DNA of 64,000 nt from Arbacia lixula. Taxonomy: Eukaryota > Echinodermata > Echinoidea > Arbacioida > Arbaciidae. The notes under the pieces are model-generated. The model saw only the letters and a program-made list of their open reading frames with translations. It made no database searches and had not been told where the DNA came from. Every line of letters begins with the position of its first letter. Position 1 is the first letter of the stretch. Below, one piece after another: positions 20,038-64,000 of this stretch. The stretch spans positions 22,066,392-22,130,391 of the forward strand of contig OZ022586.1 in assembly GCA_963669155.1 (NCBI GenBank), read 5' to 3'. The position numbers were made by a program, and so were the translations under genes.

Positions 20038-23000
20038 TTACACGAAATCCTCATAGTCTTGCAAGTCTCCTCCTGGTTCTGCACGCTGTCTTATTGCTTT
20101 CTGCTCATTGGCCATTTGTTGATTGACGTAACACCCATTTTCATCGTCTATATCTCTCCTACCCAACGGTGATTGGTTGGGCGGATTAGGTGCTCCCTCT
20201 ATCGGCAGCAAGTCTTGATATAGCGGGCCTCTGTTCTCAGGAGTGGCTGAGTGGATCTGAATGTCAAGGTCGGTGTAGATGTCTCCCTCTGGCTTTACGC
20301 CCTCTAGCGGCTGCTTCTCCCTCGGAGACCGACTAAGAGAGGGAAATGTAGAAAGAGGGGGAGAGAGAGAGAGAGAAAGATAGGAAGTGATAGGAGAGAA
20401 TAGTTATTGAGCAAACATTTGTACACAAGTAAAACATGAGAAAATAGGATTGGATTATGAAGGATGAATAAAGAAAAAGTTAAAATGTGGAGAAATAAGT
20501 TTTGTGATTTCCATCATTATGTATTTCATGCATGCTTTATAATCACATTAGCATTGCTGGATTAATATACAGTAATTAACCCGTAACCTTGTTAACTTCA
20601 TCTTTTTAACTTGTAAATTAAATATTTCTGAATATATCCATCCCCTCATGTCTCTTTTCCCCCAAAAGAATTTTACTATTATCCTGTTTATATTGCAGGA
20701 AGCAAAAACAGATCTTCAGATGTCTTCATACGACGATGCACGTGGATCTAGTAGTCTCTCTAATAATGATTTACATTTATATCACGTTTCCAGTGAAGTC
20801 GTAAATTAAATTGCAGCTTGTTATGGCTTTACTGTGTTGTATCTTCTTATAATGTCACGTGACTTACCGGGTCCTGAGATAAAGAACAGTCAGGGTGACG
20901 CTGTATATGGAGAGCAGTACGACCGCTACTGCGAGACCAATGTTGGGTCCTTAGATTGATAAGCAAATAATGTAAGATGAGAGGTGATGGATTGATAGAG
21001 ATGGAAAGTAATATGGACATAGACAGGGAAGGGGGGGGGGGGGGTATGTAGAGATAGAAGTGACAATGAGAGGGCCAGAATCCAAGGTAAGACTGATTGA
21101 CACCACTTTTTTTTTTTTTTTACTTATTAGGAATACTGTGTAAAAGGTGCAATCAGTTCTTCAAATTCCACAAACGTCTTGCACCAACAACAATATCCAT
21201 TCTCTGTGAATGGCGTAAATTAACAAACTCGTTATTAATGCAACTTGATTGGTGATACCTGGCCGATGCAGCTCTCCTTCTGAAGACACTATAGGCCTAT
21301 AAGTTTAATACATGATTAAGACAATGCTTGTTATAAGTATGCTTTGGCGTTATTTCAGGTGTAATCCTACCTAGGTTGCTGGCGTTCCCCACTGGCCTCG
21401 TGACTGTATGAGTGGTAGAACACAGGGGCGTATCATCTGGAGTTGTAGAGCCCGTCTCGTGGTTGTTTGATGTAGGGTCTGTAGCGGTATTATAAGGAAT
21501 AATTGTTTTAATACAATAAAAGTACCAATACCCAATTCTTTAGACATGTACCATTATTACATCTGAAACCCACCGACCCTTGATATCAACAAGGGGAAAT
21601 GTTGATACCTCATCAAACCAGCAGTCCCTCTAAAGCGAGTCGTAAATGGGCCAGGGCCCTGTCACATAAAAGTTTTGCGACTGATATCAATTGTAAAACG
21701 GTACATTAGAGCTATAAGTTTGGACGTGCACTCGATTCAAATAAATCGCAACTCTTAATACGACAGGACCCAGTGTGGAAAGTGTCTGCAGCTTATTCAC
21801 ATGATTATGATTATGATTATGATTATGATTATGTGTTTTGTTGTTAATTCAGGTTACATCTTACCTAGGTTACTGGTGTTGCAAACTGGATTCATGACAG
21901 ATATCAATCGGAAATCTGTACATTAGAGCTACGAGATTGGACGTGCACTCGATTCAAGTATATAAATCGCAACTCTCTGTACGACAGGGCCCAGTTGGAA
22001 AAGGTTCTGCTGCTTATAGACATGACTAAGAGTATGTTGATTATTAGTGTGTTTTGCAGTATTTCAGGTGTTATCTTACCTAGGTTACTGGCATTCCCTA
22101 CTGGTCTCGTGACAGTAGCAGTGTTAGAAGACACGGTCGTATCATTGGAAGTTGTAGATCCCACCACTATAGTGTTCGATGTGAGGACTGTATGATAATT
22201 TGACAATTATGATTAATAGATATCACGATCTGGCACCCACCACTTTCGTTAGCGTAGGGCATACTGTATGAGGCATTTGAATTATTCTCGATCAATACAT
22301 AAAAAAAACATAGCATGTATAACCAAAATACACATTTAACATTATTGTGAGAGAAATGTATGATGTTGTAACCCTCAGCATGCCACGGTCGGATTTTTTC
22401 ACCATTTATACACACACATCCCATAATGCAGCAGTTTGTCTGCCACGCACAGGATTGGCAGAAATACCTGTCATATCGTCATCTTAATCTGGTATCGCTG
22501 GCCACAAGAGGTGCAACATAGTTGGAGGGAAAAAACCTCTGCATCAAGAACAAATCCACACTGAATGTCATAGTTGACAAATGGAGAACATGATTCTAGT
22601 TAGGATGACTTTCCGTCCTGCAATCAATGTCTATATACGTATGGATGGCTTAGGTTCATTATGCTATATCCCTTGTTTTGTAATGACGTTTACCTTCATT
22701 ATAAATACCTGAGCTTGTATCAGCATCCTCAGTTGTCACGATCACAGTCTTAGGAGATGTGACTGGCTGACTTGACTCAGGAACTGGACAAATTGTGAGA
22801 TTTTATTTATGTTTACTTGCGGTATACTGTTATCAAACACATATTCCTGAAACCTTCACAGTCATGTAAACAAACAAAAAAGTAGTCCCCCAACCCTAAG
22901 AAAAATTGCAAAAAAAAAACTTTATAGGGGATTTTAAGCAGAATAAATTGGCGATATTATAAACCAACCGATGAACGTCTGTGCATAACATGCCAACGTA

Positions 23001-25991
23001 TCCCGAAATGTGAGGTTTTTCCCGCTCATTTTTAAATCTTTCCCTTCTCAGAACATGTTAACAATATTGATATTGTTAATCCTTAGCAGCTATGACGACT
23101 GTGTATAAATCAATCACAACAGAAAAGTAAGAAGTATGAAAATATAATTACGTAGACCTACTTTGAAATACTGAGATGTTGCCAGCTCCGCCACATGAGC
23201 TATAGGCATTCCCTGCACATTGAAACTGACAATCACGATCACCATTCTTCGCTGCCCCGAGCCGACTGTAGTCTGTTCCTGCGACACCGCAGTAGCATTC
23301 ATTCCCTAACTTCACTCCAGCATATACGTAGTCAGCAGTGGTAGACTCTCTGCAGTGGGTGATGCATTTATCGATTGTCATGGTGCTATCCCTTATCAGT
23401 GGATCACCAGGTAGCACGCGGGTGTTATCCACATTATCCTTATAACAACCCAGGTAGGTCTCATCTGTACAAAGTGAAACAAAATGGTGATTAGAACAGA
23501 GGGAGGCACTTCATGGATAAGTAATAAGTACAACGCAGGTTATAGGCGATTAAAGGATAGCAATTGTAAATTCCTTGCCGACCCCTAAAATACTTAGATG
23601 AAAACATTCGTCATCACTTTATACCTGAAATGGATTTTAATTTCTGTTTCATGACATATAACCATAAAGTGATTTCACTAAACAAATCCCGCAGACCACG
23701 TGTTATCAAAGTGCACGGCTACATGCTCATGTTTGTTTGCTTCATTTCGAATACATTCATAAGTGCTATTGTATGTGTATTCTAAAGTTAGATTTGCTAA
23801 ATCGTATGCCCTTCCCGACGCTCGTGTCCTAATAGATATGGGTGAGTGGCTGGTCAGATGGTCAGGGTGATGATGGGGTGCAGGGATGTGTATTGTCTAG
23901 GAATGAGGATAGGGATACATGCACTAGTTAGAAATGGCTGCGCTTGACAAGTATATTCAACATTTAAACATTCCTACCGTAACAAGCTGCTGCTCCGATC
24001 ATGTCAGGTGACGAACAAGAAGAGAATAATCCACAATCGCTGAGAGAGGTGTCACCTGTTGAGGATATAGACTCAATGTTACTGTGGACAATTACAACAC
24101 ATATATGATATGTAATGTTTAACAATACTACAAACGTAGGCTTATTGACGGTAGCAATAATCTGATTCAGGAAGATGGAATAGGTCAACCTTTTTTTTAC
24201 TGTAAATACATTTCAAGCCTCTCAAGAAATTAATTAGACCTTGAAAGGAAGTGTAAAGTGGGTTTGAAGGACGTCTAGTCCACCCACTGGACTGTATTTA
24301 GCAATCCGCCGACAACGAACGTTTGTGGCGCATCACACACAAAAAATAGGATTTTTTTTCTCGGGCGGACGGATTCGTGGAGTCGCGCAATCAGTGGTGT
24401 GGCGCGGTGTGCGTACTATGTGAATCAGTGGCGTATTGTGTGTGGCGCATTACTACGCATTCATACGCATTCCTATACATGCATACATTTGAGCTTTCGC
24501 TGCTGAACTTTTAATTTTGTCACTGAGTGCTTCTTACGTAGTTAAAAAGTACGAGCGAATACGAAATTTGATACTTTTTGAGATGGAAATACTAGCTTGG
24601 GCGCGGTTGGCCGCGTTTTTCATGTTACTTGTCCGAAAGGAAAATATCTGAAAGTAACGTTTCATGCAATTTTGTATACGGAACATTGTGAAGTTGAGAC
24701 TTTTATACTGCAACTTGATACCACGTTTAGAGTCTTTTTGCCATATTGTAACACTATTCCTCGTTGAATCTTTACTGATGTATCGTAAGTATTACATGTC
24801 ACAACTGCGCAAGCATATGGGGTGAGGATATTTCCCCAAATTCTTCTGCGCATCCGATTTTGTTTATTCGTCAAATGCAGGCAAAACTCATCCAGAGAAT
24901 CGGCGGCATTGAACATCGAGATCAAAGAGAAAATCTTTGTGAAGGGTTCTTTTGTGACTAGAAGGAGAGTACAATGAATCTGCATTAATTAAACGGCTGA
25001 TGGATATCCATGTGCTTAAACATCCTTGATAAAACACGGCCAGAATCTGGACTAAAGGACGTGCAATGTGGAAAGTCTACGTACCCGTCTGGCAGTCAAG
25101 AAATGTGGTTGGTTGTCCACAAACGATTATCACTAGCAAGAACGATGCTATTACGAAGTTATTTCTGACATCATTGCATATTGACGATATCAATGATTTA
25201 TAGCGTGTTAGGAAGATGTAATAGACCTACCTCTTGCAGCATTTGAAAACATTTCTTTTCATGACTATAATTCTTAGACAAATGAAGGAAAATGTAATGT
25301 GTTTTTTTAAGACATGACAGGGGTAACGATGGGCATATCTTGAAATGGTAATCTACGTACCTTCCTGGCAGTTGAGAAAAGTGGTTGGTTGACCTAGGTC
25401 ACTACCGAAAGGTGAATCAGGAATGGCCTTGTTGGTTCCAGAGGCTCCGATGTGTTCACAGACAAGTCTAGCATCGTGGAAATCAAAGTTGACCCCACAC
25501 GTCGTTTGCCACGTCTCATTATCTGTGGTGTACTCCACGGTGCCTTCATAGCGTGATGGGCTGTTCACAAGACGGACGTCTGGGGCAAAAACAACAATTT
25601 GCATTAGACATCACTGATCATTCTTAATTATGCAGTTCCTACCAGCAGGACATTCAGCGTATTGAGAGGAAGCAAACGCTCTGGTCCTTCGTCATCTCCA
25701 TCTTTCCATAAATCTGATTTTTCTTGTCAAACTGTGTAGTACCTTCTTATTTACCCTACCTTGTCTCTCTCTTCTTGCAACGTCACCTGCAATGTATTCA
25801 GAGCCGAAGGGACTAGCAGAAGCTCAACATTGCAACACACATATTTTGACTATTTTGAACATCCAGTTTACTAAAGGATACGATTCAGGATAGAACGACA
25901 TAGTTGTATTTGAGAACTTACCTATTATCATACCACCAGATAGCAATGCGTTGTAGGTAACGAAGAGGAAGACGAGCCAAACTTGAAACAT
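20038..25991 (-). CDS. Gene A: SRCR-WSC transmembrane receptor with ITAM-like tail
   Basis: Nine exons join in frame: 25922-25991, 25361-25579, 23978-24055, 23162-23464, 22694-22783, 22080-22187, 21371-21478, 20868-20949, 20038-20332 (1353 bases, 450 aa). Residues 1-23 form a signal peptide (MFQVWLVFLFVTYNALLSGG). About 24-122 is an SRCR domain (SRYEGTVEYTTDNETWQTTC) with six cysteines over two exons, which fits group A. About 123-223 is a WSC domain (YLGCYKD, NECYCGVAGTDYSRLGAA). About 224-325 is a Ser/Thr-rich, probably O-glycosylated stalk. The membrane helix is NIGLAVAVVLLSIYSVTLTV. The roughly 98-residue tail has DIYTDL, PLYQDLL, CYVNQQ and QDYEDF. A cell-surface immune or recognition receptor is inferred. 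Ligand unknown. Confidence 0.85.
21801..21834. repeat. (ATGATT)n microsatellite in gene A intron
   Basis: Five to six copies of a hexamer, between stalk-exon modules. Confidence 0.9.
21862..21900 (-). pseudogene. Decayed stalk-exon duplicate in gene A
   Basis: The plus strand shows CTTACCTAGGTTACTGGTGT, the signature of a stalk-exon 3' end plus donor found at 21371 and 22080, but homology stops after about 40 bases. The following intron-like DNA (GACGTGCACTCGATTCAA) is itself duplicated near 21722 and 21938. So the stalk module, exon plus intron, was amplified three times and one copy has decayed. Confidence 0.75.
25082..25118 (-). pseudogene. Fragment of SRCR exon 2 in gene A intron
   Basis: On the minus strand a fragment encodes GQPTTFLDCQTG followed by GTACGT. 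This closely matches the end of the true SRCR exon (GQPTTFLNCQEG, then GTACGT) 250 bases away. Upstream homology and an acceptor are absent, so it is a truncated exon duplicate with a donor but no acceptor. Confidence 0.7.
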
Positions 25992-26032: not shown

Positions 26033-26085
26033 GATGATACCAGTCAGCTGGACCGCTGTAGATGGAAGTAAGTGTCCGCTAACAA
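26033..26085 (-). promoter_or_regulatory. Conserved 5' element, gene A
   Basis: Just upstream of the gene A start, the minus strand has AGCTGACTGGTATCATCAG, shared with gene B at the same distance and partly with C and D. The flanking GCGCC segment seen in the others is diverged here. Role is inferred: core promoter or 5' UTR. Confidence 0.45.
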
Positions 26086-31929: not shown

Positions 31930-32194
31930 CTACGTGTAGATGGGGTTTACTATCATCTCCGTGCCCTCCTCCTCCTCGTCGTCGTCGTGGTCGGTCGCTT
32001 TCTTCTTTTTATCCGGCATGGCGTACAAGGCATCCGTGGCCGTCGGTGTACACTCCTGCGTGCTAGGCTCCATTGCCTTCGAGGCGCCATTGCGCATCAC
32101 GTGACTCTTCTTCCGTTTGTCAGGCATTGCATATAAATCGCCCAAATGAGCGCCTTCTGGTTTGGGCCTGTGCTCTGTCGTGTAAGGCGCTCAA

Positions 32195-32539
32195 ATAAGC
32201 CATTTCGTAATTGCAATTGCGCATGAGCAGATTATTGCCTTTAGTAAATGACCTCAGGTCAATTCCCAAGCCCACAGAATAAAAATGGGAATTCATCAGA
32301 TAGTCGACCACATTTCAATCTATTATCATGCAAATATAGCAACAGCCATTTAGCTTTGAGAAGGTAGTGAAAGAACATTCCACCATGTGCATCTGCTTCT
32401 ATTGTTGTTCCGGGCACACTGTGAAATGTCTTTACATCCATCATCCAACACAACTTCATGAAAAACAATCCCAGTGAGCAGTCTAGTGGTATTTATTCCG
32501 TGCATTGTCCGACCATGGTGTAATTACGAAATGGTCTAT
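32195..32539. mobile_element. TIR element inside the gene B tail exon
   Basis: Ends ATAAGCCATTTCGTAATT and the complement of ATAGACCATTTCGTAATT. It is the uninterrupted 345-bp relative of the element at 16177-17390. It splits the tail exon between the DEED and LYAMPDK coding parts. Genes C, D and E have no insertion at this place, so it entered gene B after the duplications. Confidence 0.85.
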
Positions 32540-32622
32540 CCTCTTCGTCTTTTACAAATTCCATGTTTAGATCCCGTTCCTTGTTGCCCACTGCGTAATT
32601 GACACTGTCCGCTTTAGGCTGA

Positions 32623-32642
32623 GGGGGGGGGGGGGGGGGGGG
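32623..32642. repeat. C20/G20 homopolymer within the gene B tail exon
   Basis: On the minus strand it encodes a proline run just after the tail-exon acceptor. Genes C, D and E have no such run. Its length decides the reading frame of the whole tail. Confidence 0.9.
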
Positions 32643-33599
32643 CTGGTTTTCCTTGTCTACAGTGGATTGAATTTAGTAGAAAATGAGGTAGTAACAGGGA
32701 CAAGATGAAGGACCGTTGACAGATAAAAATGTACAGACAGAGGTAACCAAAAAAAAAAAAAAAAAGAAGAAAGGGAGAGGAAGAGAGAGAGAGAGAAACA
32801 AATGTATTGTGCAATAAAAAGATCAGTTCTGCATATATTATCTATGCATGAAATTCTTTCTACTACTTTTTCGTTGAATGGTTATACTACCAATGTAAGC
32901 AATGTTACCACTGCTTCTATTACTTTAAATGATACTTCGTTATTATCTATAACGAACTTCTACAGCTACAAAATCGTACACATTTTTCAGCGACTGGTCT
33001 GCTACTTTAATTTCTTTGTTTTTAGTTTTTACAAAACCAACATCCCCTACCATTATCTTTACTACGGCTAACACTACACACACACGTACGGATAACACTC
33101 ATTCACACACATGCGTTTGTAAATGACAACGACGACAATGATGACCAGGAGGATGATCACGAGCCCAGCTGCTCCTCCACCTGCACCGGATGCAACTCCT
33201 TGTTCAGAAAAGTATACAATTTGATGTCAATAAACTACACTATAAAGTCAATCTGCTATTCATGTTCAATAATGCGCATTGACAATATCCATTCTCTTTG
33301 AATGCCAAAACTAAATACATCCATTACCAATACGATATGACTGGTAATACCTGAACAGAATCGAAGAGAATTCAAAATCTGCCACATTGAATAGCTAATA
33401 TATTCCTATTAACATGATCAAGACAAAGCTTGGTATAAGTGTTGTCCGGCGGTATTTCAGGTGTAATCCTACCTAGGTTGCTGGTGTTCCATACTGGCCT
33501 CGTAACAGCAGGAGTGGGCGTATCAACTGGAGTTATGGAACCCGTCTCGTATTTGTTTGATGTAAAGACGTAGACTGTATTTAATTGGACAATGTTTGA

Positions 33600-35239: not shown

Positions 35240-38200
35240 TTTGAAAAACAGCGATGTGACCATGACCGCCACATGAGCTATGCGAGTCCCCTGCACATTC
35301 AACCTGGCAATCAGCATCACCCATACCCGCTGCCCCGAGCCGACTGAAGTTTGTGCCTGCGACACCGCAGTAGCATTCGACCCCCGCCTCCACTCCAGCA
35401 TAGACGTAGTGAGCTGTGGTGGACTCTCTGCAGTAGTTGATGCATCTCTGGATTGTCATGTGATTCATGGTTGTATCCATCAGTTGCGCTCCTGGTAGAA
35501 CGCGATTGGTCACGTCATCCATGTAACACCCGAGGTAGGTGTCGTCTGCATAATGTGAAACAAAATGGTGATTAGAACAGAGGGTGACTCAAGTCATATC
35601 AAATGAAAGAATGGCGATTGTGGATTATTGCCCACACAAGAAATAACGAAGTGAAAACGTAGCTAAAATGTGTTACCTGACATTCATGTTTCGTGTTATT
35701 TCATATCACCACTTCATTGATTTTCACCTCGGTTTATCTGTTTTATTTTGAATATATTCGCAACGGGTATTGAAATGTAGTGTGTATTTAAGGAATACGT
35801 TCAATAAAGTGTATGTCCTTTCTGATGCTATTTCCTGAAGAGATATGACCATGTGGATGATTTGGGTGATGACCAGGGGCTGGATGAGCGACGGAGAGTA
35901 TTACCTGGGGATGGGGTTCAAAGAGATACATGCGCGAGTTTCATATGACTGCGATTAACAAGCATCATTTGAAGATGAAATATGACATTTCCTACCGTAA
36001 CAAACTGCTGCTCCAATGGTCATGTTGGTGTCTGTCACACAAGGGATTATTGAACATTCGCTGATAATGGTATGATCTGTTGATGAAGCAGAGACATTGT
36101 TATTTGACAAATTGGCAATATCTTGAAATACAAAATGAACGTAACTGGAGAACGATTTCTGAAAACATATAATCTCACAAACGCTCACCAATCATAGCAT
36201 CAATTCTACGTTTGACTTGTTCGCACGGGTGAATATGTTTATCTTATTTAGGCATGTTGTGTTCATGGATTGATAATAATTTCTCTCGGCAAATTGAACA
36301 AGACCTAGACGGAAAGTCAAAACTTCGTTTTTCTCTCGTACCATATTTAGGGGTCAACTGTACTAAATATATTTTACTTCTACTTTGACTCCACGTTCTC
36401 ATAAAATGTTTTTGTGTTTTATGTTTTTTTCACTAGTATATGTGTATGTAACTAATAATGTCCTGTATGCAAACGTCGTCATGTTTTGTTACCTTTTGCT
36501 GCTTATTTAAGGAAAAATTAAATTGACTAATTCAATCGATTTCAAATTCAATTCCCCCAAGTATATGGTAAGTTTTAGGGCATTGCAATGATTTATCTTA
36601 TTGATTTATTTATGTATTTATTTGTTCATTCCTGCATAGTTCACCAATACAATGTGATACAAACAATGGCATATAAAGTATACTTGTGACAAATAATAAT
36701 GTATTAAAGATATGTACAAAGTATTATCTGTACACAGTGGAACATACAGATGTCTGAAAATATAAACTTACAGCTTGAAGGGTTGCCACACCTTTCTTAT
36801 AAAAAAAAAAGAATGCAGATAAGATAACACTCAATATAACATGAAAATATTATTTATATAATATGAAAACAAGCAATACTTGTTTGTTTTCATATATAAC
36901 CCTTACCTACACTTTATACAAAAATATTGTAAAGAAAATACAAGCGAAAATGAGAATAGATTGGAGGGGGGGGGGGGGAGAGGTTGCCAGAGGTTGCCCA
37001 ATAACCACATTAATATGGAGTTGTCACATTCATATCAAAATATACGCGTCAATGATATGAATAATACAAGAAACAGATACAAAACAAAACAAAATTGTCA
37101 GGTCGGTGTCGACTAATAGACCAAAAAACAAACAAACAGACAAAAAAAATACCCTAAGAACATCTTGAAGGACTGGTACGAATGACAATCTACGTACTTG
37201 TGTCGCAGTGGAGACCCGTGAACATGTTGGTCGGTTGCGTCAGGGTACTCCCAAAAGGTGAGTTAGCAATAGCCCTGTTAGTTACATAGGCTCCGATGTG
37301 TTCACAGACAGGTCTAGCATCGTGGAAATCAAAGTAGACCCCGCACGTCGTCTGCCACGTGACACTATCTGTGGTGTACTCCACGGTGCCTTCATAGCGT
37401 GATGGGCCTTTCACAAGGTGGGCATCTTGGACAAAAACATTATCATTAGACACGCAACTAAATATAATCCAACCTTCAAAATGCTGTGTATTGATTCATG
37501 AACAAATGAGATTTAGTAGCCCATCTGTCCACGCGCACTTTAAGTGTGCTGTTTATTTTGGAGTAGGGTTAGAGCCAGTAGATCTTTCTAAATTGGAAGA
37601 AATCTATACCTCTTTTCACCTAAGTGAAACATATATTCGTTTCCCATTAGTCGTCTTGTTCGTCCTATTACTTCCCCGTTTGAAAAAAAAAAATGTTTCC
37701 GTTTACCCCATTCCCGCCGCGTCGTTATAGAGCCGACATGACTAAGTGGGAGAGACTAAACAAGAAAGTTAAATGTATATAGGATATTTTATTCAGGATA
37801 TATCACAAAGTGTTTGGCATTAAAAGCGGAGAGTCAATGAGGAAAGTCAATGATCCAAACTTTGGCTTAAAAGAATGATGAAAAATCAATGAAATGAAAT
37901 AGAGATGTATGGATTTAGTTTTGTACTTATTTCAACTTTTGTCACCTCATAGATGATAATTGAGTACGTTTGAGACGACTAGAAATCTGACTAAGAGTAG
38001 TTAACAATAATGATTGAGCAAGAGTGATGTACAGAAGAGGCCGCTGAGTACTACATTACTAATCAAATTCCTCAAAAGGTGAAAATTGCATGATTTCAGC
38101 GTATTATATCAAGAATATTTATTGATGAAATGTCACACAACCAAAAAAAAAAAAAAAAAAACACGATCAAAAGTGTCAAATTGCTCTAATCCAGTATAAA

Positions 38201-38384
38201 TTGTGAATATAATAGAATAAAGCCACTATGTCTAGACAGAATCGTACATCAGAACTCACCTATTATCATACCACCAGAGAGTAGTGGATCGAAGGTGACG
38301 ACAAGCAAGACGGACCAGGCTAGACTTAGGTTATCCATTCTAAACTTATTAGTTGTGCGGAATTCCAACTACATTAGCTCCTGA

Positions 38385-38460
38385 TGATACCAGTCAGCTA
38401 GGCGCTTTCGTGAGTCTCACGTTTCCTTCCTACGAAGCGACATTAGCTATTTGAAGATAC
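38385..38460 (-). promoter_or_regulatory. Conserved 5' element, gene B
   Basis: The minus strand has GTCGCTTCGTAGGAAGGAAA, then GAAAGCGCCTAGCTGACTGG, then TATCATCAG, 50-120 bases before the start codon. The same order occurs upstream of C and D. A GGAA core (ETS-like) is present. No TATA box is evident. Confidence 0.55.
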
Positions 38461-43263: not shown

Positions 43264-46200
43264 TTATGTATAGATGATGTTTTCTACCATCTCTGTCCTG
43301 TCCTCGTCGGGGTTGGTCGCTTTCTTCTTTTTATCCGGCATGGCGTACAATGCACCCGTGACCGGCGTTGTGGACTCCTGCGTGCTAGGTTTCATTGCCT
43401 TCGAGGCGCCATTGCGGGTCACGTGACTCTTCTTCCGTTTGTCAGGCATTGCGTATAAATCACCCAAGTCGGCCCCTTCTGGTTCAGGCCTGTTTTTGGT
43501 CGTTACAGCGTATAAGCTGCTCAGATCCTCTTCGTCTTTCGCGAATCCCATGTTGAGCTGCGGTTCCTCATTGACTGCGTAATTGACGCAGTCCTCGTAA
43601 TGGTGATGGGTGCTCGATTCTTTTCGTGCGGCTCTACCATGTCTACAGTGGATTGAATACAATATGTAAGGAATTATATCATGGAGAAGAAGAAGGATAT
43701 TTACGGAGGAAAGTGAACAGAGGGAGTAAAGAAGAAAGAGAGAGGGGATTGATATTTGACTGTGCCGTTAAAAAACATCTCAGTCATGTACGTACAGTAT
43801 CATCGAACACTGATAATCATATTACAATTGATTTTATTGTTTGTACTTTAACTGCTTATGTATTAATAAACTCACTTCATGATAATAATGTTACCACAAC
43901 TGATAATACCTCTGTTATCAAAACGAACCTCTGCAGCTACAACAAAATATACCTTTTACTGCAAAAACACTGCTTCTTCTTATATCGTTATTTTGACTAA
44001 TCCAACATCCCCTACCATTTTACTACTAACAAAAATATTATTACTCTTACTCCTTCTACTGTTACCGTTTCACACATGCATAAACAGATGATAACTGAAA
44101 AAAATACCTGCGTCTGTAAAGGAATACGACGACGATGATGACCACAAGGATGATCACAATCGCAGCAATCCCTCCACCTGCACCAGTTGCCACCCCTGGT
44201 TTAGAAAAGTTTAACATATGATGTAATTTCTAGCCTATAAAGGTGTAATCAAGTTCAACAATCATGTTCAACAATGGGCTGTTACAATATCCAGTCTCTC
44301 TTTGATGACAAAACTTAATACAACCATTATCAATACGATATGACTGATAACACCTGGAAATTTAGCAGTCATTCCAAGGAGAAGAAAAAATCTGCCACAT
44401 TGAATAGATTATGCTGCCAAATTATATGATTAAGACAATGCTTTGTGTTTTGGCGTGTTTTGGCGGGATTTCAGGTGTAATCTTACCTAGTTTGCTGGCG
44501 TTCTGCACTGGCCTCGTGACGGTAGGAGTGGTAGACAGGGGCGTATCATTTGGAGTTGTTGAGCCCGTCTCATGTTTGTTCGCTGTATTTGAATGGATAA
44601 CTTTTGAGAAATATTACAAGTTCAAATTACCCATACTTCCTTTCAGCATGTACTTTTTTTAAAAATGCTATCATCTAACTCGTTAAACAGACTTAACGAA
44701 TACGTACACACAATTATCACACATATTCTATAAAAAGCCCAATGGGTATATTATTGGTAAATATATTATTCTTTATTTCTTTATTTCATCTGTTGGATTA
44801 TTCAGAAAATAATTCATTCAGCCCGGAAATTCTCAGATAATACACCAACCGCTTAATTTGATCGATTGATGTTAAATTGAATAGTTTAAGAACCCAAATA
44901 TATAACAAATTGAGAGTGGCATACCAAGATCCGAACGTCCTTTAAATTTTGCTCGATTTGAGAAAATACACTGATATCAAACTTAACAACTATAATACGA
45001 AATATTGCATAACTCTTATGGGACTCCGTTATCGTTTTGTATTGTAATTGATGCTTATTTCTCCGAACACGTTTACGCACAGTCTGGCATATAAACCACA
45101 TCACAAGGAAGAAAATAGTATATATGCTATTAAAATTCAATGACTTTTTTCCAGTGGCAGGTCTATACTATGTAGAACATATGTTTACTTTTTGTTACTA
45201 CCTACCGATAAAATTTAAGCTCGTTTCTACTGATGCTTGATATGTTAGTCTGAGTACTTTGATGTTGTCTGCTCGAAGTATGCCAGGCTGCTAAAATGTG
45301 CTCGAATACTAAACAATAGCTTGTATGTAGGAAAAGTTCACTTTTGCCACGTTTCCTTTTGGCGTTTCGCAAAATTGTGAGATATGCCCATTACCATGTT
45401 ATATGTTTATAATCCGATGCTTGTATTGAAAATAGTTCTTGAACCACAGACAGCAATAAAATACACACTGTACCTAAAATACAACGGATTACCCCAAGAG
45501 GTACGGGATAGGGTTGGTGTCGTAATCGTGGCTGAGCTGTTCTCAAGTCTGCATAGACTGTTGATATCGGCACCGTCACGGTTTCCCTAGCATGATCCTT
45601 GCGATGCATACAGCGTGATGATGGGATTTTACGCTGTTTTTCCCCAGCACGCACCAAGCAGTGTTTTGTAACGCGAAATTTGATTGGTCAGGATCTAAGG
45701 TAGTGCAGGTCAGGAGATCTTTTACTTGTATGTCCCTGTGTACGTATACTGGACACGTAGATTGGTAATCTACGGTACACATATAAGCTAGGTCATGGAT
45801 CTGTTATAATGACCATTACTTTTTGTGTAGCTATACAATGGCCTTTATGTAGGCCTACTTTTCAAGCAATGTGTAGTGCTGAGGGAGTAGTAGGCCTATT
45901 TTGCGGTTCGACCTGTCATTGTGGGGTTATAGTGACCCAGGAGACTGACACCCCATGCATTTTCATCTGCTTTACACACCAAATATTTAGTTACCCCTCC
46001 CACACCCCCTCCCCCCATAAAGAACCCACTGTCACACACTGATACGTACGCGAGGTTCCTTCAATGCACGCCGTAATAGCTCCGTGTAACCGTATAGGGT
46101 CCACCCGATTGGATGCACCCATGAACATTCGGTTACGACATGCCCTCGACTCCATTCATAAACTTGCATACTATTTCTGCGTTTGATGGCGTTGGGAGAG

Positions 46201-49200
46201 GCTTAGCTTAAGGTTGGAGGTGTAAAACAGACGATAATGCGTACTTACAGTGCAAAATCGATCTTTTTCAGAACCTTTTTGGCTATTTTATAGTTCATCA
46301 TCGCGAGCGTCGCAGCGAGTAGTGCATGATGCATGATTGAAAGTGTGCTCGCAGTACAGGGCCATATAGGACCGACCGCGCAGTATTTCTGATTGGCTGG
46401 TGTGACTGACACCGCGACGGTGCGATATCTTTCTACTAACATATTACTCACGGTGTCCCCAACACAAAACAAATGAAGGCCACCGTGACGGTGCCGATAT
46501 ACACTTCCTTTTATCTAATCTCCATGATTTGTTTTATTTTGAAATGATTCACTCGTCGTATCATGAAATACATCAGGAATGTGTCTCAACATTTTGACAG
46601 AATAACGCGCTGCTTATAACTAGTTCCGTCGTGTTTAGATATATTAGCCATTCACTTTAAACTATAGTTGACTATTCTATCGCATGATGAATCATTGTTA
46701 TTTATTCATTAGTATATTTATTTATCTAAGGTTATTTAGCCCTCAGTGACTCAACACTATTCTACCAGGGGGCCCTGAACAATTAGGGTGTAAATCGTTA
46801 ATCATACACACCTGTCATGCCTGATGTTTGAGTGCTACCCTCAGTCATGTCAGTGGGGATTACGTAGCTTGTTACTGGTTGGTGAGATGCATGAATCCAA
46901 GCATGTGACGAAAATAAATATTGATACATGTATTACATGGAAACATTTCAATTTGGTAAGTCATTCATGTCCCATGTAATAGTGTCTCACTATCATCTCC
47001 CAAACATATTTTTGAATTGAGACATACCATTACAATTTTTCTCATTATCATGAAAGAATTTGTACCCACAAATCTAGACACGCCAATATGGGTACCACTA
47101 TTTATCATTCGTTCACAAATATTTTGATTTTGAACGTTGTTCCACATATTTCAATATTTTGCTTGGCTTGTCTTCTTGTTGCCCATAGTTTGGTTAAAAC
47201 GGAATCTTTTAATACCTATACTTGTATAACATTGATCATAGTGTGATTGGTTGGTTGCAATCAGCCTCAGTGTTCCCTTTTAAAGAGTCAAGTAAAGTAA
47301 ATTGAAGACGAATTTAGATAGAATGAAAACTTGTGTTTTAGTTCTCTCTGATATTCAGTGATGCAATTTTCCCTGCTTGAAGTAATCCTATTTTATCACG
47401 TTAATGTCGGCAAACACACAACAACAGTACTCTTTCTCACATCATATGTTTTTTATAATCTTTTTTATATGAAGCTGTTTGGAATGGCACTAAAATAAAT
47501 AGAGAACCTTTTGGAGTAACAAAATATTTGTAATTTTAACTACTGTTTATACGTTCATTTCATTTCCTTAATAAAAAGCTATTGAGAATCAATAAAGTTC
47601 CCTAAAGTAATGATTACCAATGCACCTTTGTAAAATGAGCTCTTCTGAAAGAGAAGTTAGATAATATCATTGATTAGGTTTGTGAATTGATGTAGGTTAC
47701 TACTAATTTGTATAAGAGCTGAAATTGACGCAACACCTTTTGGAAGAAAACCTTAACATATTGTCTGCAATTGCATGAACTACGCATAATTATGATTGCG
47801 CAAATAACTTTAATTCCATGATGTGCATGCTCTATAATATGTGTTTTACTGTATGAATGTATATGTGTGTTTGGTGTGTGTGTGTGTATGAGCGCGCATG
47901 TCTGCGTGCGGGTGTGTCTTGTGTGAGTGCATGCGTGTGTGTGTGTGTGTGTGTGCGCGCGTAACAGTAGGAGGATGAATAGTCATAATAGTGTGGCTAT
48001 TTTACCACAGAACGATCTCTTGGTAATAACATGGATAGGCCTTCTTCCACTGAACAGTCATGCCTATAAAGCAAAGTAGGCAATAACTCAGTTGATATAT
48101 TGAGTATATTGAGTTGATAAAACAGTACTCTCCAGAAAAAACAGTAAATCTAATGAAAAAAAAATGCTATTCCACTAGTTCTCAACATGTCATTTAGTGA
48201 TCGTAGCATCACTTACACTGTCTCGAATTCGCGGAACAATCTTCCGGAACTCATAAAAACACTGATTCAAATGATGAATTTAAGATCATTTTATAAGCCC
48301 ACTTATGTAACATGTACTGGATGTATATTTGTTTGAGACCCATCACGTCTCGTATCTTGTATAATTCTTTGTTTGTCCATTGTAGTCGTAAATAACAATG
48401 ATTATCACCAATATTATTCTCTAAGCAAATTCAAATTCGTTATTTGTTAAAGCTTATTCTCCATAATGAAATGTTGCCAGGGGCCATTAAAACTAATGTA
48501 TACTGACTGTTGAATACTGCGATGTGACCAACTCCTCCACATGAGCTATAGTCGTCCCCTGCACATTCAACCTGGCAATCACCATCACCATGCACCGCTG
48601 CCCCGAGCCGACTGTAGTCTGTTCCTGCGACACCGCAGTAGCATTCATTCCCGTACTCCACTCCAGCATAGACGTAGTCAGCCATGGTGGACTCTCTGCA
48701 GTGGCTGATGCATTTATCGATTGTCATGGTGCTATCCCCTATTAGTGGATCACCGGGTAGCACGCGATCGCTCGAATTATCCGTTTTACATCCGAAGTAC
48801 GTATCGTCTGTAAAGTGTAGAACAAAATGTATATGAGAATAGAGGGAGAACACATTAAATTAAGAATAGGCACAAGCAAGGTTTAAAGACAGCTCGTCCC
48901 TTTTGCAGATCACCACAAAACCATCGAAACATTTGCAAAACATTTAGAGAAGTGTTAGCAAGCTGTATATTCATAATTTGAAACTGATACGTAGTGTAAA
49001 ATTCACATAATACACGTAAACAACGTCTGATTAAAAATCTTTGCCTCGGGCTCTTAGCAGTTTGTGTTGAAATATCTGCTTTATTGATAAATCTGTTCAT
49101 TAAATTATAAAACGCATTATGAAAAAATTGTTCTATAGAAGGAATCATCTCCATAGTTTGGTAATTACTCATAAAATTATAAATTATTACTCATAAAATT

Positions 49201-52200: not shown

Positions 52201-53663
52201 TTTTGTAATTCTACATGCAATTGTTGGTCAAAGTTTTAATACAAAGTACGACATAATTACAATTTCACCTACTTGTAAAACAAGCAGAAGTTATATGTTA
52301 GCATCTGTGATGTCATACCGACTATTATTTGTGTATGTTTTATTACGAATAAGCTGGTAACGTTAACTATATGTTATAGTTTATAGTTGTTTATTATGTT
52401 GAACCCTTTTTTGAAGTGATATCCGTTATATTGTAGGGTCTTTCCTGATTCCCATTCACGAATAGCAGTTTGATGGTTAGATGAGGTGGGTAAGGGTAAG
52501 GTGAACTAGCGACAATAGGAGGTATTACATACACGTGCAGTTTAAAATGGCTGCGCTTGACACTTAAGAGACCAACATTTCAACTATCCTACCGTAACAA
52601 ACCGCTGCTCCGATCATACCAGACGGACAATCGAATAATCCGCACTCGCTGATATCAGTGTCACCTGTGGAGGATATAGACTCGATGTAACTGACGGTAA
52701 TGTCAACGGTCTAAACATGAGTTAAGTTCTGAAATCAAACTGAATCATTTTACAAACCTATGCTTTTTGGCGGGACCAATAATTTCACTGACCGTCGTAG
52801 GGAGATGGCATAGGCCTATCTTTAGCATGTTTATAACTATGTAAATATATTTTTTGTTTCTCTACTCTACACTTATTAGGCCTTAGAGAACAAGAAGGAA
52901 GGGTGTAAAGTGTTTTTTTTTTTTTTTTTGGGGGGGGGGGGGACAATGCAATAGTAATGATGGCAGGACGTGCGCAAAGTATACTCTACGTACTTGTCTC
53001 GCAGAAGAGAGATGTATTTGCTGGACTAAAGTCACCACCGAAAGGGGAGTCAGTAACAGCCTTGTTAGTTCCATAGGCTCCGATGTGTTTACATACAAGT
53101 CTAGCATCAACGAAACTTAAGGAGAGTCCACATATCGTCTGCCACGTGACATAATCTGTGGTGTACTCCACGGTGCCTTCATAGCGCGATGGGCCGCTCA
53201 CAAGGCGGACGTCTAGGGCAAAACAAAAAAGAATCCCATTAAACATTTGTCATTATTCTCAATTCTCACCAGTAAAATATTCAGTGTATTGAGATGGAGC
53301 ACATTTCGTTGCATTGCCTTATGTAGCGCATTATCTTCTTGTCTATCCACACACCGTCTGTTCTCGCATTACGTTACCGTCCATAATGCATGCAAAGTCG
53401 AAAAGGATTGGAGGAGACCAAGCCATATGTTTTTACATGATGAGGCCCCTTTTTGCCACATGTGACATTTTTTTTTTACATGTAATACACTCAAACCAAA
53501 TACAAAAAGCAGTTTATCTGGCACACAAAAGTCATACTACAATCACTGCAACTAGACCAGCACAATTGTCTCAGAACTCACCTACTACTACCTGGTCGCC
53601 AGATAGTAATGGAGTGAAGGTTGCTATAAGCAAGACGAACCAGACTAGAATCAGGGCATCCAT
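43264..53663 (-). CDS. Gene C: SRCR-WSC transmembrane receptor with YAM-repeat tail
   Basis: Exons: 53582-53663, 52994-53212, 52593-52664, 48508-48807, (46812-46874), 44487-44582, 44108-44195, 43264-43642. Without the bracketed exon the product is 411 aa, with it 432 aa; both keep frame. Signal peptide MDALILVWFVLLIATFTPLL; group-A-type SRCR with six cysteines; WSC domain (NECYCGVAGTDYSRLGAA); Thr-rich stalk (TPNDTPLSTTPTVTRPV); helix AAIVIILVVIIVVVFLY; tail of about 126 residues. The tail has HYEDCVNYAV, SSLYAV, GDLYAMPDKRKK, GALYAMPDKKKK and C-terminal ENIIYT. YAMP fits a YxxP SH2-binding pattern (Crk/Nck type); that is inference. The intron before the WSC exon holds a 2.7-kb hAT-like element. 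Confidence 0.85.
45565..46499. mobile_element. TIR element in gene C intron
   Basis: TATCGGCACCGTCACGGT at 45565 is inverted at 46482-46499, with a related motif (ACCGCGACGGTGCGATAT) at 46411. The interior is about 900 bp, GC-richer than the intron, without recognisable transposase. Family and target duplication are not determined. Confidence 0.6.
46812..46874 (-). CDS. Candidate extra stalk exon of gene C
   Basis: A 63-base segment between a CAG acceptor and a GTGTGT donor is phase 1-1 like every neighbour. It encodes Thr/Ser-rich TSYVIPTDMTEGSTQTSGMT, similar in character to the extra stalk exon of gene A (22694-22783). Splice sites are ordinary, not strong. It could be used constitutively, alternatively, or not at all. 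Confidence 0.45.
46900..48500. other. Gene C intron, AT-rich
   Basis: No exon or element recognised apart from a GT microsatellite (about 47866-47957, mixed with GCGC). Confidence 0.45.
49414..52101. mobile_element. hAT-like non-autonomous transposon, 2.7 kb
   Basis: Inverted termini of about 150 bases begin GGGGTTACACCATTTCCTGA and include GACCCACTCTTTCTGACCC and GCTAATGAATATTCAAGAC. Both sides carry an exact 8-bp direct repeat, TTGCAAAA (49406-49413 and 52102-52109), and the joined flank exists uninterrupted near 7272. An 8-bp duplication is the mark of hAT-type transposition. Frames inside (up to 101 codons) show no transposase, so it would need a partner in trans. It lies in an intron of gene C. 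Confidence 0.8.
51874..51975. repeat. GC-rich tandem duplicate inside the hAT-like element
   Basis: Two copies of a roughly 50-bp unit, GCGCCTCCTGGCCG with CTCTTTGGCCGCGCCGGCGC and AATGTTCGA. Subterminal repeats of this kind often serve as transposase-binding sites; that role is inferred. Confidence 0.8.
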
Positions 53664-53699: not shown

Positions 53700-53800
53700 A
53701 TGTGATATGCTACATCAGCTACCAGTCAGCTAGGCGCTTTAATGATTGATGTGTGTCCTCCCTACGAAGCGTCGTTAGACGTGCGAAGATATACTAATTG
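53700..53800 (-). promoter_or_regulatory. Conserved 5' element, gene C
   Basis: On the minus strand: CGACGCTTCGTAGGGAGGAC, then AAAGCGCCTAGCTGACTGGT, then the start region. It is the closest relative of the element left upstream of remnant gene D. Confidence 0.55.
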
Positions 53801-55260: not shown

Positions 55261-55550
55261 AAACGAAATACAAACACTTAGAGAGTAAACAAATGAGCAA
55301 AGAGGGATATGGAACTATCTCGGCTGCACCATTAATAGATTGATAGCTATATAACACATGGTAAATAAACATTCCTCCAGAAAACTTCTTTAGATTTTTT
55401 TTTTTTTTTCTGAACAGAGCAATCGTATCAAAGAAAAATGGTACCCTAGATAACACGTTTAAGATAAAACAAGGGAGATAAAAGCGCAAATCACCTGCTT
55501 CGAAGGCCATGGAGGCACCGCAGTGCTATAGATCAGAAGACATAGACATA

Positions 55551-56221
55551 ATTTGCGTTTGAACACTCACATTGATAATATTTGTAAATCGGCGGCCAAG
55601 GGACTATATAGGATTGGGAAGATAAGACATTTTTTGGATAAAGCGACCACAGAGAGGCTTGTTCACGCATTTATATTTAGTTACTTAGATTTCAATAATG
55701 GTCTGTTTCTGGGAATCTCTGAGACTCAACTAAATAAACTCCAACGTGTACAGAATTCAGCGGCAAGGCTTGTAACGCGAAAAAGGAAATTTGAACATAT
55801 AACTCCTATTCCTACTTAGTCTCCACTGGCTCCCGATAAGGGCTCGTGTTCAATTTAAAATCCTCACTCTTGTATTCAAATGCTTATGTGGAAATGCCCT
55901 GTCTATCTTACTGAACTCATCAAATCATACCAGCCTACTCGTAATCTTCGTTCTCAATCAAAAAATCTTCTTTCTGAAATTCGTGTTAAATCTAAGACAT
56001 TCGGTGATAGAGATTTTGCAAATACGGCACCCAAATTATGGAACAACCTCCCCAAGGCATTAGATCATTGACAGACTTCGATCAATTCAAATCAAAACTA
56101 AAGACGCATCTGTTTGATAATTATTAGTTATTTTCAAATTTTCAAATTCTCACATAATCAATTTTTACTTTCACACGCATAGAGAATATTTGAATGGTAT
56201 TATGCGTCTCTAAGAATTGAA

Positions 56222-56390: not shown

Positions 56391-58383
56391 TTATGTGTAG
56401 ATAATGTTTTCTACCATTTCTGTACCGTCCTCGTTGCCGTCGTCGGTCACTTTCTTCTTTTTAGCCGGCATGGCGTTCAAGGCATCCGTGACCGGCGGCA
56501 TAGACTCCTGCGTGCTAGGCTCCATTGCCTTCGAGGCGCCATTGCGCATCACGTGGTTCTTCCTCTGTTTGTCATGCATCGCGTATAAATCGCCCAGTTC
56601 GGCGCCTTCTGGCTCGGGTCTGTGTTCTGTCGACACATCGTGTAAGGTGCTTAGATCCTCTTCGTTTTTATCGAGTCCCATGTTAACCTGCGGTTCCTTA
56701 TTGACCACTGCGTAATTGACGCAGTCCTCGTAAGGATAATGGGGGCTTGGAGTGATTTCCATGAGAATTTCCTCGTAGTTATTCGCATCGAACTTGTCAG
56801 GAGGTTGATCGGGGAGAGGCGCTTTTCTTGAGGCTCTGCCATGTCTACAGTTGATTGGATATAATAGAGATCGGGTCATAAAGACATCGACGGACAATTA
56901 TGAACACAGGGAGAAAATAAGCAAAGGAGGGAGAATGAGAGATATAGAGAGAAAGGGGGGGGGGGACAAGGTAAAATTTTGAGAAAATTCAAAATATATT
57001 GTTTTTTATTGTCTGTACTTAAACTAATAACTATTCCTTATTCATTACAATGTTACCACTTCTACTAAACACTTAAAAAAAAGTCCCCGATTTTTCAAAA
57101 TACAATAACTTTTTAACAAAACAAATTTGACCATATTTATGTGGCAGGGGTGTTTTCACACTCATTGACTAACTTTTATGTGAAAATGCGATTGATCCGT
57201 AAAGTCATGCATGAATGAGCTTGCATTAAAGGTAAAAGTGTCACTTTTCAAAAATGCCCCAAAACAGTAAATAATAGTATTTTCACTTTGTTTATGTAGT
57301 GTGAGTACTCAAGAATGGCATTGTTATAACTTCTTATGTTTTTAGAAAATGTGAAGATACATTTTACTTGAATTTTTTTTTTGACTTTCTTAATAAACTT
57401 CATGAATTTCACCATTTCAAAATGTGGGAATGCTGAAAGTGTTTGGATTGAGCTCATTCAACCGTAAAATGTATTTAAAGTGTGAGGGGATGTGTAAAGG
57501 GATCAACTGATTGATGATTATCACAAATAGCTTTACTTATTCACCATAAACAGAATTGGTCGAAATCCTGTATCACAATTCCCCTTAAACGACTCTCGTG
57601 AATTTTGAAAAGTCACATTTTGCCATTGATATGTGCTCACTCATGCACGACTTGACAGATCAATCACATTTTTACAGCGAGGTTAGTCAATGAGTGTACA
57701 AACACTCCTGCCAAATAATTTTGTTCAAAACCGTTTCGTGTAAAAGTTATACTATTTTGAAAAAGGGGGGACTTACTTTTTTGTTGTATTCATAATACTT
57801 TTGTTGTTAAAACGAAATTCTACAAGTACAAATATGTGAACCATTTACTGCGATAGCACTGCTTCTTCTTTTTTCATCATTACAATTGCTTCTACTAGTA
57901 GTACCACTTCACACGCGTATTTACGAATAATACCTCATCGAATACCTGCGTTTGTAAAGGACTACGACGACGATGATGACCACGAGGATGATCACTATCG
58001 CAGCAATCCTTCCAATTGCACCAGCTGTCACGCCTAGTTTAGAAAAGCATAACATTTGATGCCATTAATAGACTATAAGTTGCAATCAGTTATTCCAATT
58101 CAACAACTGTCTGGAGCCAACAATGTCCATTCTCTGTGAATGACGTAACTAAGCAAACTTTTTATCAATACGATATGATTGGTGATACCTGGCCAATGCG
58201 GCAGTCCTTCTGGAGCTAATATAGACCTGTCAGTTACATGATTGTGACAATGCTTTGTTACAAGTGTGTTTTGGCGTTATTTCAGGTGTTATCTCACCTA
58301 AGTTACTGGTGTTACCCACCTGCTTCGTGACAACAGGAGTGGTAGAAGACAGGGGGGTATCATCCGTAGCTGTAGATCCCATA
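56391..58383 (-). pseudogene. Gene D: receptor remnant lacking the ectodomain
   Basis: Three 3' exons survive: stalk 58298-58383 (GSTATDDTPLSSTTPVVTKQ), helix 57946-58033 (AAIVIILVVIIVVVVLYK) and tail 56391-56844. The stalk exon has lost its acceptor; its 5' half runs into DNA that in gene A is intron (22390-22460), and 60 bases further the promoter block begins. One or two deletions thus removed signal peptide, SRCR and WSC exons. The tail frame is open, but tyrosines kept in C and E are lost (TLHDV for SLYAV, ALNAMPA for ALYAMP, YAMH for YAMP). It carries a YEEI motif (NNYEEILMEI) and extra sequence absent from C. Without a signal peptide or initiation exon it is most likely non-functional. 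Confidence 0.75.
57075..57784. mobile_element. Long-TIR foldback element, copy 3
   Basis: Arms include AAAGTCATGCATGAATGAGC and GTGTCACTTTTCAAAAATGC on the left, with inverted counterparts TGTGCTCACTCATGCACGAC and GAATTTTGAAAAGTCAC on the right. The right terminus is the G run then ACTTACTTTTTTGTTG, as in copy 1. It lies in the helix-to-tail intron of gene D. Confidence 0.8.
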
Positions 58384-58489
58384 TTCGGATTTTTTTTTTC
58401 ACCATTTATACACACAAATCCCATAATGCATTAGTTTGTCTGGCACACACAGGATTGATAGAAATACCTGTCATATTGTAATTCATTGA

Positions 58490-58575
58490 GTTCAGCTACC
58501 AGTCAGCTAGGCGCTTTAATTATTACTTTGTATTCTCCCTATGAAGCGACGTACGACGTGTGAAGATATATTAAT
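58490..58575 (-). promoter_or_regulatory. Conserved 5' element left upstream of remnant gene D
   Basis: On the minus strand: GTCGCTTCATAGGGAGAATA, then AATTAAAGCGCCTAGCTGAC and TGGTAGCTGA. It is the counterpart of the elements before A-C, now fused by deletion to intronic DNA of the gene body. It could still drive transcription of the remnant. Confidence 0.5.
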
Positions 58576-60736: not shown

Positions 60737-60784
<48 letters not shown>

Positions 60785-61905: not shown

Positions 61906-61911
61906 CATATA

Positions 61912-62491: not shown

Positions 62492-62519
62492 TATGTATAT
62501 AGTAAAAAGTGGTAGTAAA

Positions 62520-62850: not shown

Positions 62851-63062
62851 ATTTACTATAGTAAATAGTGAACGTCCTATCATACAATATTACTGGACTA
62901 TATGAACTCCAAATACAAAATTATCCCTCGTGCAGGTCTATTTCACCAAGGCCAAAGGCCGAGGTGAAATGGCCCTGCACGAGAGATAATTTTTATATTT
63001 GTCGTACATATAATCCAGTATATTGTACAATAGATTTTACACTATTTATATAATATACAATG
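62850..63062. repeat. 210-bp palindrome / foldback
   Basis: The core is TTATCCCTCGTGCAGG, TTTCACC, AAGGCCAAAGGCC, GGTGAAA, CCTGCACGAGAGATAA. Imperfect outer arms extend to about 62850 and 63062 (AATATTACTGGACTATAT against ATATAATCCAGTATATT). It is a foldback element or strong cruciform-forming site. Confidence 0.85.
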
Positions 63063-63069
63063 CAGTCAA

Positions 63070-63727: not shown

Positions 63728-64000
63728 TTATGTGTAGATTTGGTTTTCTACCATCTCCGTGCCATCATCGTCCTCGTCGTCGGTGCCTTTCTTCCTTTTA
63801 TCCGGCATGGCGTACAAGGCATGCGTGACGGGCGGCGTAGACTCCTGCGTGCTAGGCTCCATTGCCGAGGCGTCATTGCGCGTCACGTGACTCTTCTTCC
63901 TTTTGTCAGGCATCGCGTATAGATCGCCCAAATCGGCGCCGTCTGGTTCGAGCCTGTGTTTTGTCGACACAGCGTATAAGGTGCTCAGATCCTCTTCGTC
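63728..64000 (-). CDS. Gene E: last exon of another array receptor (partial)
   Basis: An open frame reaches the window edge and ends at a TAA at 63728. It encodes the same tail as gene C: DLSTLYAVSTK, GDLYAMPDKRKKSHV, HALYAMPDKRKKGTD, an acidic DEDDDGTEMVE patch, and C-terminal ENQIYT. All key tyrosines are kept and the frame is intact, so the gene beyond the edge is probably functional. The upstream exons, if present, lie to the right of the window. Confidence 0.85.
   Translation of the reverse strand, partial: DEEDLSTLYAVSTKHRLEPDGADLGDLYAMPDKRKKSHVTRNDASAMEPSTQESTPPVTHALYAMPDKRKKGTDDEDDDGTEMVENQIYT

Follow-up and report, generated by a model that had tools for sequence, protein, structure and literature searches.

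SRCR-WSC receptors with two unrelated tyrosine-motif tails in a tandem array of the sea urchin Arbacia lixula

Introduction

When receptors with one type of ectodomain stand in tandem, do they all carry the same cytoplasmic tail? The question is raised by 64,000 nucleotides of Arbacia lixula DNA (assembly GCA_963669155.1, contig OZ022586.1, here called C11, positions 22066392-22130391; this whole stretch is the window), which hold five related minus-strand units, U1 to U5, of a family that combines an SRCR domain, a WSC domain, a Ser/Thr-rich stalk, one transmembrane (TM) helix and a tail with tyrosine motifs. They do not: one type of ectodomain comes with tails of two unrelated classes, which was overlooked in the original prediction, an earlier note on the same window.

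Results

The two classes can be told apart within the window, where the U1-U4 homology runs through the stalk and breaks off in the intron that precedes the TM exon, at about base 21141, and where the TM and tail exons of U1 match only themselves. Tail class A, with the motifs YEDC, NYAV, LYAV, LYAMPDK (twice) and IYT, is that of U2 to U5, and tail class B, with YTDL, YQDL, YVNQ and YEDF, is that of U1. The units had been taken for paralogues, but the TM and tail of U1 are not paralogous to those of U2-U5.

The genome (607 Mb, 590 contigs) was searched for WSC, SRCR exon 1 and both tails; as scoring was confined to the best 150 of 173 WSC candidates and the best 150 of 531 SRCR candidates, the resulting counts are minimum values. 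It can be seen that the window holds part of an array of about 2 million bases with about seventy related receptor genes. Among the 150 WSC exons scored, 74 lie in C11:21.66-23.73 Mb, while the search with SRCR exon 1 gave 118 matches among its best 150 and, at E<=1e-20, 71 in the same interval, two at C11:14.6 Mb and one on contig C22. C11 has 23,786,446 bases, which places the last unit about 61 kb short of its end. The expanded tandem family that had been proposed is borne out by this clustering of WSC and SRCR exons, as are units extending past the window edges, since the array reaches far outside the window. Of the 36 matches to tail B, 31 are close, at 72-100% identity; 30 of these are in the cluster and one is on C22, where it adjoins SRCR and WSC matches; with 31 close copies in the genome, a one-off tail swap in U1 was rejected. 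Tail A gave 50 matches, of which 36 are stop-free copies (at least 97 of 125 residues), all in the cluster, and the others are three damaged or truncated copies, four rows that represent two split variants, six short relics and one distant match.

Two further observations concern the WSC exons of this chromosome. Those at C11:22054122, 22280734 and 22283171, among tail-A units, are 99.7-100% identical, which is either a very recent duplication or an assembly repeat. The neighbouring C11:20.2-21.6 Mb carries WSC exons that score lower (about 36-46 bits) and are not accompanied by close SRCR exon-1 matches of the array type; they may form a second WSC family next to the array.

When the nearest tail on the same strand within 9 kb was assigned to each of the 74 WSC exons, 37 received tail A, 25 tail B and 12 neither (one tail A was assigned to two WSC exons). 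The order of A and B along the chromosome is random, with 33 runs against 30.9 expected for the WSC labels, and 39 against 36.4 for all 72 tails, one tail-B fragment included. The WSC tree was based on 69 of 75 exons (74 from the cluster and one from C22; six weak matches, one of them with stops, were left out), and 62 of these carried a label. It needs 19 changes of tail label compared with a mean of 19.8 for shuffled labels (216 of 500 shuffles were as low), its well-supported branches alone force eight changes, and the B units as a single clade are rejected (p-AU 1.3e-55). WSC pairs from different tail classes average 0.833 identity and pairs from one class 0.831; there are few near-identical pairs, all within class A. 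Tail class as a marker of ectodomain lineage is rejected by the tree and by the identity comparison, and what was found is the arrangement that marks paired receptors, i.e., one ectodomain type on two TM/tail types without separate ectodomain lineages.

Conservation of the tails was assessed on 29 of the 31 close tail-B copies (those at 22017747 and 23084401 were left out) and on 26 of the 36 stop-free tail-A copies (ten were left out, including U4, whose eroded motifs would lower the count). The tyrosines at four sites of tail B are kept in 29/29 copies, YVNQ in 29/29, YTDL in 27/29 and YQDL in 26/29 (27/29 if YEDL is accepted). In tail A, five tyrosines are kept in 26/26 copies and the sixth in 25/26, and the two YxxP motifs in 26/26 and 25/26. 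The pooled ratio of nonsynonymous to synonymous substitution rates (dN/dS) is 0.51 for WSC (69 exons), 0.38 for tail B (29) and 0.30 for tail A (26); within a 200-kb stretch it is 0.62 for WSC and 0.56 for SRCR exon 1, both from nine units, which are the whole sample for the SRCR estimate. The U3-U5 tails show a clear synonymous excess (p 8e-6), and in ectodomain pairs the excess is weaker, with several of them short of significance. A parsimony site test gave seven of 99 WSC sites at p<0.05, two of them at p<=0.0002, and in the tails none of 111 and none of 92 sites at p<0.05. The tail sequence is under purifying selection, and WSC changes faster. In the ectodomain-less U4, two of the tail tyrosines and a YxxP proline are missing, as one would predict for a tail that counts only when it is part of a receptor.

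Behind the stop codon of seven tail-B exons, at a distance of 160-228 bases, there is a decayed piece of tail A (one at C11:22137579-22137686). This shared geometry suggests one founding event, in which a single TM-B plus tail-B block would have been inserted into a tail-A gene and then spread. Distant relatives of tail B were found at C11:2.93 and 2.94 Mb, on C12 and on C14 (44-50% identity), with YQ-x-L and Y(V/I)NQ kept in 4/4 and the first YxxL in 3/4. For tail A, a similar exon in which two LYAxPDK are kept was located at C11:11.457 Mb, with SRCR and WSC matches close by. Over C11:11457613-11467976, SRCR, WSC and a tail-A-like exon follow each other in this order as an isolated, distant set, a candidate for the ancestral arrangement.

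The identity of the ectodomain was checked with Pfam profiles on the translated exons, as had been proposed, and both domains are above the cut-off in 3/3 spliced proteins: WSC at 56-60 bits (cut-off 27.8) and SRCR at 28.9-35.3 bits (curated cut-off 26.1). The first SRCR exon frame of U2 alone, the only such frame tested singly, reaches 24.3 bits and is under the cut-off. Each unit with an ectodomain has one SRCR, split over two exons, with six cysteines in U1 and U3 and also in U2, and in alignments Tyr and Ala occupy the C1 and C4 places of the PDB group-B SRCR domains; the assignment to group A that had been made is upheld by this pattern. With a profile of the three proteins, matches were obtained to SRCR domains in the PDB and to the WSC of Kremen1, and the eight WSC cysteine columns are kept in 66-69 of 69 exons. 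Neither kringle nor CUB appeared in the Pfam results for the spliced proteins.

The window DNA is animal-like with introns, and exons, splice junctions and Pfam confirm the original count of three units with an ectodomain, one remnant and one partial unit. The claimed order of signal peptide, SRCR, WSC, Ser/Thr stalk, one helix and tail is present in spliced U1, U2 and U3, whose minus-strand exon sets consist of signal peptide, two SRCR exons, WSC, stalk, TM and tail. All internal junctions of these models are GT/AG, and the introns are of phase 1 apart from the last, which is of phase 2. U1 (nine exons, 445 amino acids) and U3 (eight exons, 432 amino acids) are open from ATG to stop, and U2 has seven exons and a tail exon that loses frame in a C-run and is additionally split by a transposon-like insert (about 32195-32539, 21-nt inverted ends). 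Alignment between units covers 0.53-0.85 of exon bases vs 0.03-0.17 of intron bases (five ordered comparisons, U1-U3). Each protein has two hydrophobic stretches, one N-terminal and one before the tail, which fits a signal peptide and one helix, and the stalk is 36-38% Ser/Thr in U1 and U3. U4 is a remnant that retains stalk, TM and tail, and comparison with the exons of the other units gave no signal-peptide, SRCR or WSC matches in it. U5 is cut at base 64000, and beyond the window there are SRCR, WSC, TM and tail matches and a signal-peptide-like exon that starts with Leu instead of Met. The features are as follows (positions in the window, strand, description).

20038..20332, minus: U1 tail exon, class B (YTDL, YQDL, YVNQ, YEDF), stop at its end
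20868..20949, minus: U1 transmembrane exon, class B (hydropathy 2.32), not similar to the U3 TM
21371..21478, minus: U1 stalk exon 3, from splice model and between-unit similarity
22080..22187, minus: U1 stalk exon 2, from splice model and between-unit similarity
22709..22783, minus: U1 stalk exon 1, from splice sites only, without paralogue support and outside the between-unit alignment
23162..23464, minus: U1 WSC exon, Pfam WSC 64.9 bits
23978..24055, minus: U1 SRCR exon 2, from splice model and Pfam on the spliced protein
25361..25579, minus: U1 SRCR exon 1, from splice model and Pfam on the spliced protein
25922..25991, minus: U1 signal-peptide exon with ATG
26038..26049, minus: 12-nt block AGCTGACTGGTA upstream of U1, from alignment of the four upstream regions of U1-U4
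31930..32190, minus: U2 distal tail A (LYAMPDK twice), separated from the proximal part by the insert
32195..32539, no strand: transposon-like insert that splits the U2 tail, with inverted ends of 21 nt; 16177-17389 is a longer relative
32493..32656, minus: U2 proximal tail exon, frame lost in the C-run, low end extending into the insert
33111..33198, minus: U2 transmembrane exon, class A
33473..33574, minus: U2 stalk exon
35240..35545, minus: U2 WSC exon, Pfam 59.3 bits
35996..36076, minus: U2 SRCR exon 2, from splice model and Pfam on the spliced protein
37198..37425, minus: U2 SRCR exon 1, from splice model and Pfam on the spliced protein
38260..38338, minus: U2 signal-peptide exon
43264..43642, minus: U3 tail exon, class A (YEDC, NYAV, LYAV, LYAMPDK twice, IYT)
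44108..44195, minus: U3 transmembrane exon, class A
44487..44582, minus: U3 stalk exon 3
46812..46874, minus: U3 stalk exon 1, from splice sites only, without paralogue support and outside the between-unit alignment
48508..48807, minus: U3 WSC exon, Pfam 62 bits
52593..52664, minus: U3 SRCR exon 2, from splice model and Pfam on the spliced protein
52994..53212, minus: U3 SRCR exon 1, from splice model and Pfam on the spliced protein
53582..53663, minus: U3 signal-peptide exon
56391..56844, minus: U4 tail exon, class A, motifs eroded
57948..58034, minus: U4 transmembrane exon, limits taken from the match
58296..58391, minus: U4 stalk, limits taken from the match, ectodomain exons deleted
63731..64000, minus: U5 tail A, truncated where the window ends; U5 runs on to C11:22134536

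The block AGCTGACTGGTA is common to U1-U4, with further copies at 38388-38399, 53720-53731 and 58497-58508, and is kept even in the ectodomain-less U4; it may be a promoter or 5' untranslated region element. The insert in the U2 tail resembles a short, internally deleted relative of the GC-rich repeat at 16177-17389 (about 1.2 kb, 23-nt inverted ends). In the U1 intron after SRCR exon 1, positions 25083-25118 (minus) repeat the 3' end of that exon together with its splice donor. Between the units there are possible exons of another gene, at 10624-11133 (minus; weak Methyltransf_FA match of 18.6 bits vs a cut-off of 24.2) and at 13463-13654 (minus; EGF-like cysteine pattern, no Pfam report), and an open reading frame at 55532-55819 (plus) resembles by eye a fragment of non-long-terminal-repeat reverse transcriptase, with no Pfam match. 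Neither ARAGORN nor Rfam at gathering threshold found RNA genes in the window, and among viral contigs 16 pattern matches were obtained and none was confirmed as a relative.

Discussion

KIR and LILR are paired receptors of vertebrates, in which similar immunoglobulin (Ig) ectodomains stand on distinct TM/tail types. We suggest, with a probability of roughly 60%, that the array described here is a paired-receptor-like recognition family, in which a variable SRCR-WSC ectodomain would stand on one of two conserved tyrosine tails. It would be a large birth-and-death family of type-I receptors, with the window as a slice of it. Together with WSC and the Ser/Thr stalk, SRCR, which is an established recognition fold, would form the variable recognition ectodomain, with microbial or altered-self glycans or proteins as presumed ligands, and the single helix would link it, presumably at the cell surface, to one of the two tails. 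Tail A may be phosphorylated by Src- or Abl-type kinases, after which its two pYxxP sites could dock CRK-type adaptors; in tail B, the YxxL pair may dock tandem-SH2 or Src-type SH2 proteins and YVNQ, which we take to be a GRB2 site, may dock GRB2, or alternatively this tail may serve endocytosis. We infer the immune role, the phosphorylation and the identity of the adaptors from sequence, and the label "phosphotyrosine-type" in the original prediction would likewise follow from the motifs and their conservation. Both tails are found with the same ectodomain lineages, which would uncouple recognition from output.

Several of these steps have counterparts in the literature. YxxP binds CRK/CRKL in DCBLD1/2 and in choanoflagellate crka, and the pYxxP specificity of the CRK/CRKL SH2 domain predates animals (PMC6029619, PMC5043372; all papers cited here were drawn on in excerpt). 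DCBLD1 and DCBLD2 are, like the tail-A units with their two conserved YxxP, transmembrane receptors with repeated YxxP motifs that recruit CRK/CRKL; unlike them, they have a CUB-LCCL-discoidin ectodomain and seven or eight YxxP, and homology is not claimed (PMC6029619). WC1 and CD163 are multigene SRCR transmembrane receptors with tyrosine tails and with unrelated cytoplasmic domains on related SRCR ectodomains, and the motif Y-(Q/E)-(D/C/E)-(I/L), which WC1 shares with CD163c-alpha and whose tyrosine is needed for WC1 signalling, fits YQDL of tail B; however, their SRCR domains are of group B, in many copies and without WSC, compared with one group-A SRCR and WSC here, and we do not claim common descent of the tails (PMC2906472). 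In the Xenopus FcR-like family XFL (at least 75 genes), which is also large and fast-evolving, similar ectodomains stand on distinct TM/tail types, although these ectodomains are Ig domains and the types are activating and inhibitory (PMC2413239). An eight-cysteine WSC on a membrane protein is found in Kremen1/2 and in the fungal Wsc sensors, which have a cysteine-rich domain and a transmembrane domain; Kremen differs by its kringle and CUB domains, neither of which is in the U1-U3 Pfam results, Wsc1 is fungal, and for neither group is an SRCR described in the excerpt of that source (PMC9024836). A fungal three-WSC lectin binds beta-1,3-glucan, but single WSC domains have no obvious pocket (PMC9024836), so WSC alone may bind weakly.

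A number of results weigh against a paired-receptor-like family. In 37/62 cases the tail is shared with the nearest WSC neighbour, slightly above the roughly 32 given by label frequencies, gene conversion could blur the WSC tree, and some tails, such as that of U4, have no ectodomain: no WSC lies within 9 kb of 5/41 A and 6/31 B tail entries. Within the window, neither SRCR exon 1 (p 0.07, 0.11) nor WSC of U1-U3 (0.067) has a significant synonymous excess, and the seven WSC sites of the parsimony test are barely above the five expected by chance, so that the case rests on two. As for the motifs, the strict patterns of the immunoreceptor tyrosine-based inhibitory (ITIM), switch (ITSM) and activation (ITAM) motifs have no match in the U1 and U3 tails, and these identities were rejected. 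With respect to ITAM (YxxL/I, 6-12 residues, YxxL/I), the spacing in tail B is longer, and one match is obtained only if 6-16 residues are allowed. The shuffle P values are weak, 0.08 for two YxxL/I in tail B and 0.044 for two YxxP in tail A. The description of the tails as signalling-like draws its support from the kept tyrosines and the purifying selection, not from strict motifs and only weakly from motif counts alone.

The tyrosines could also be AP-2 sorting signals (YxxL and YxxF fit YxxPhi) of endocytic scavenger receptors, by which coelomocyte-like cells would take up bound microbes or debris without signalling through phosphotyrosine. YTDL, YQDL and YEDF of tail B are three Y-x-x-hydrophobic motifs (shuffle P 0.019), YREM occurs in CD163A (PMC2906472), and the crab SRCR/C-type-lectin receptor SpBark promotes phagocytosis (PMC6716108). 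We nevertheless hold this explanation to be unlikely, as it leaves unexplained YVNQ in 29/29 tail-B copies, tail A with no YxxPhi and two conserved YxxP, and the very existence of two tail classes. That the diversity of the array marks individuals or gametes, in self/non-self recognition or in fertilisation or adhesion, appears distinctly improbable: a membrane family that is diverse, duplicates fast and lies near a contig end would fit equally, and the names SRCR and WSC do not fix a ligand, but invertebrate SRCR expansions show raised expression in immune-related tissues, notably the digestive gland (PMC10855680).

Neutral tandem duplication with few working genes, in which most copies decay and the mix of tails is debris of unequal exchange, would account for the broken tail of U2, the missing ectodomain of U4, the tail-A relics behind tail B, two tail-A copies with stops and the 12/74 WSC exons without a tail within 9 kb. 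Against it, 69/69 WSC exons, 29/29 tail-B and 26/26 tail-A copies are stop-free (the six weaker WSC exons, one with stops, are outside this sample), dN/dS is well below 1 and the tyrosines are nearly invariant, and we regard this reading as highly improbable. If the paired-receptor-like family is accepted, it is tempting to go further, although what follows is tentative: the array might be an invertebrate paired-receptor system of about seventy SRCR-WSC receptors, with one diversifying ectodomain pool and two conserved phosphotyrosine outputs (CRK-type for A, YxxL/GRB2-type for B), mixed by exchange just upstream of the TM exon, and of an origin independent of the vertebrate Ig and C-type-lectin paired receptors.

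Conclusions

The combination of SRCR and WSC, which the original prediction did not know as a described receptor class, is not a new architecture, and we rejected it as such: WSC has been counted in 36 sea urchin SRCR genes (8.96%) and is listed for SRCR genes of Phoronis australis too (PMC10855680). Like A. lixula, Strongylocentrotus purpuratus and P. australis have SRCR and WSC in one gene and are rich in group-A SRCR, and S. purpuratus has large tandem SRCR clusters (253/359 SRCR genes in tandem); unlike here, where each SRCR takes two exons, SRCR in the examined S. purpuratus array is mostly single-exon, and for neither species are tail classes described in the excerpt of that source (PMC10855680). 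The new part is the two tail classes, for which no precedent in an SRCR-WSC family was found in the open-licence full-text literature. Large echinoderm SRCR families have so far been known by count, with the signalling of most of them unclear. A design with one recognition pool and two outputs is best known from vertebrate paired receptors, and the present family offers a direct test of whether immune recognition is balanced or diversified in this way in an animal that lacks antibodies.

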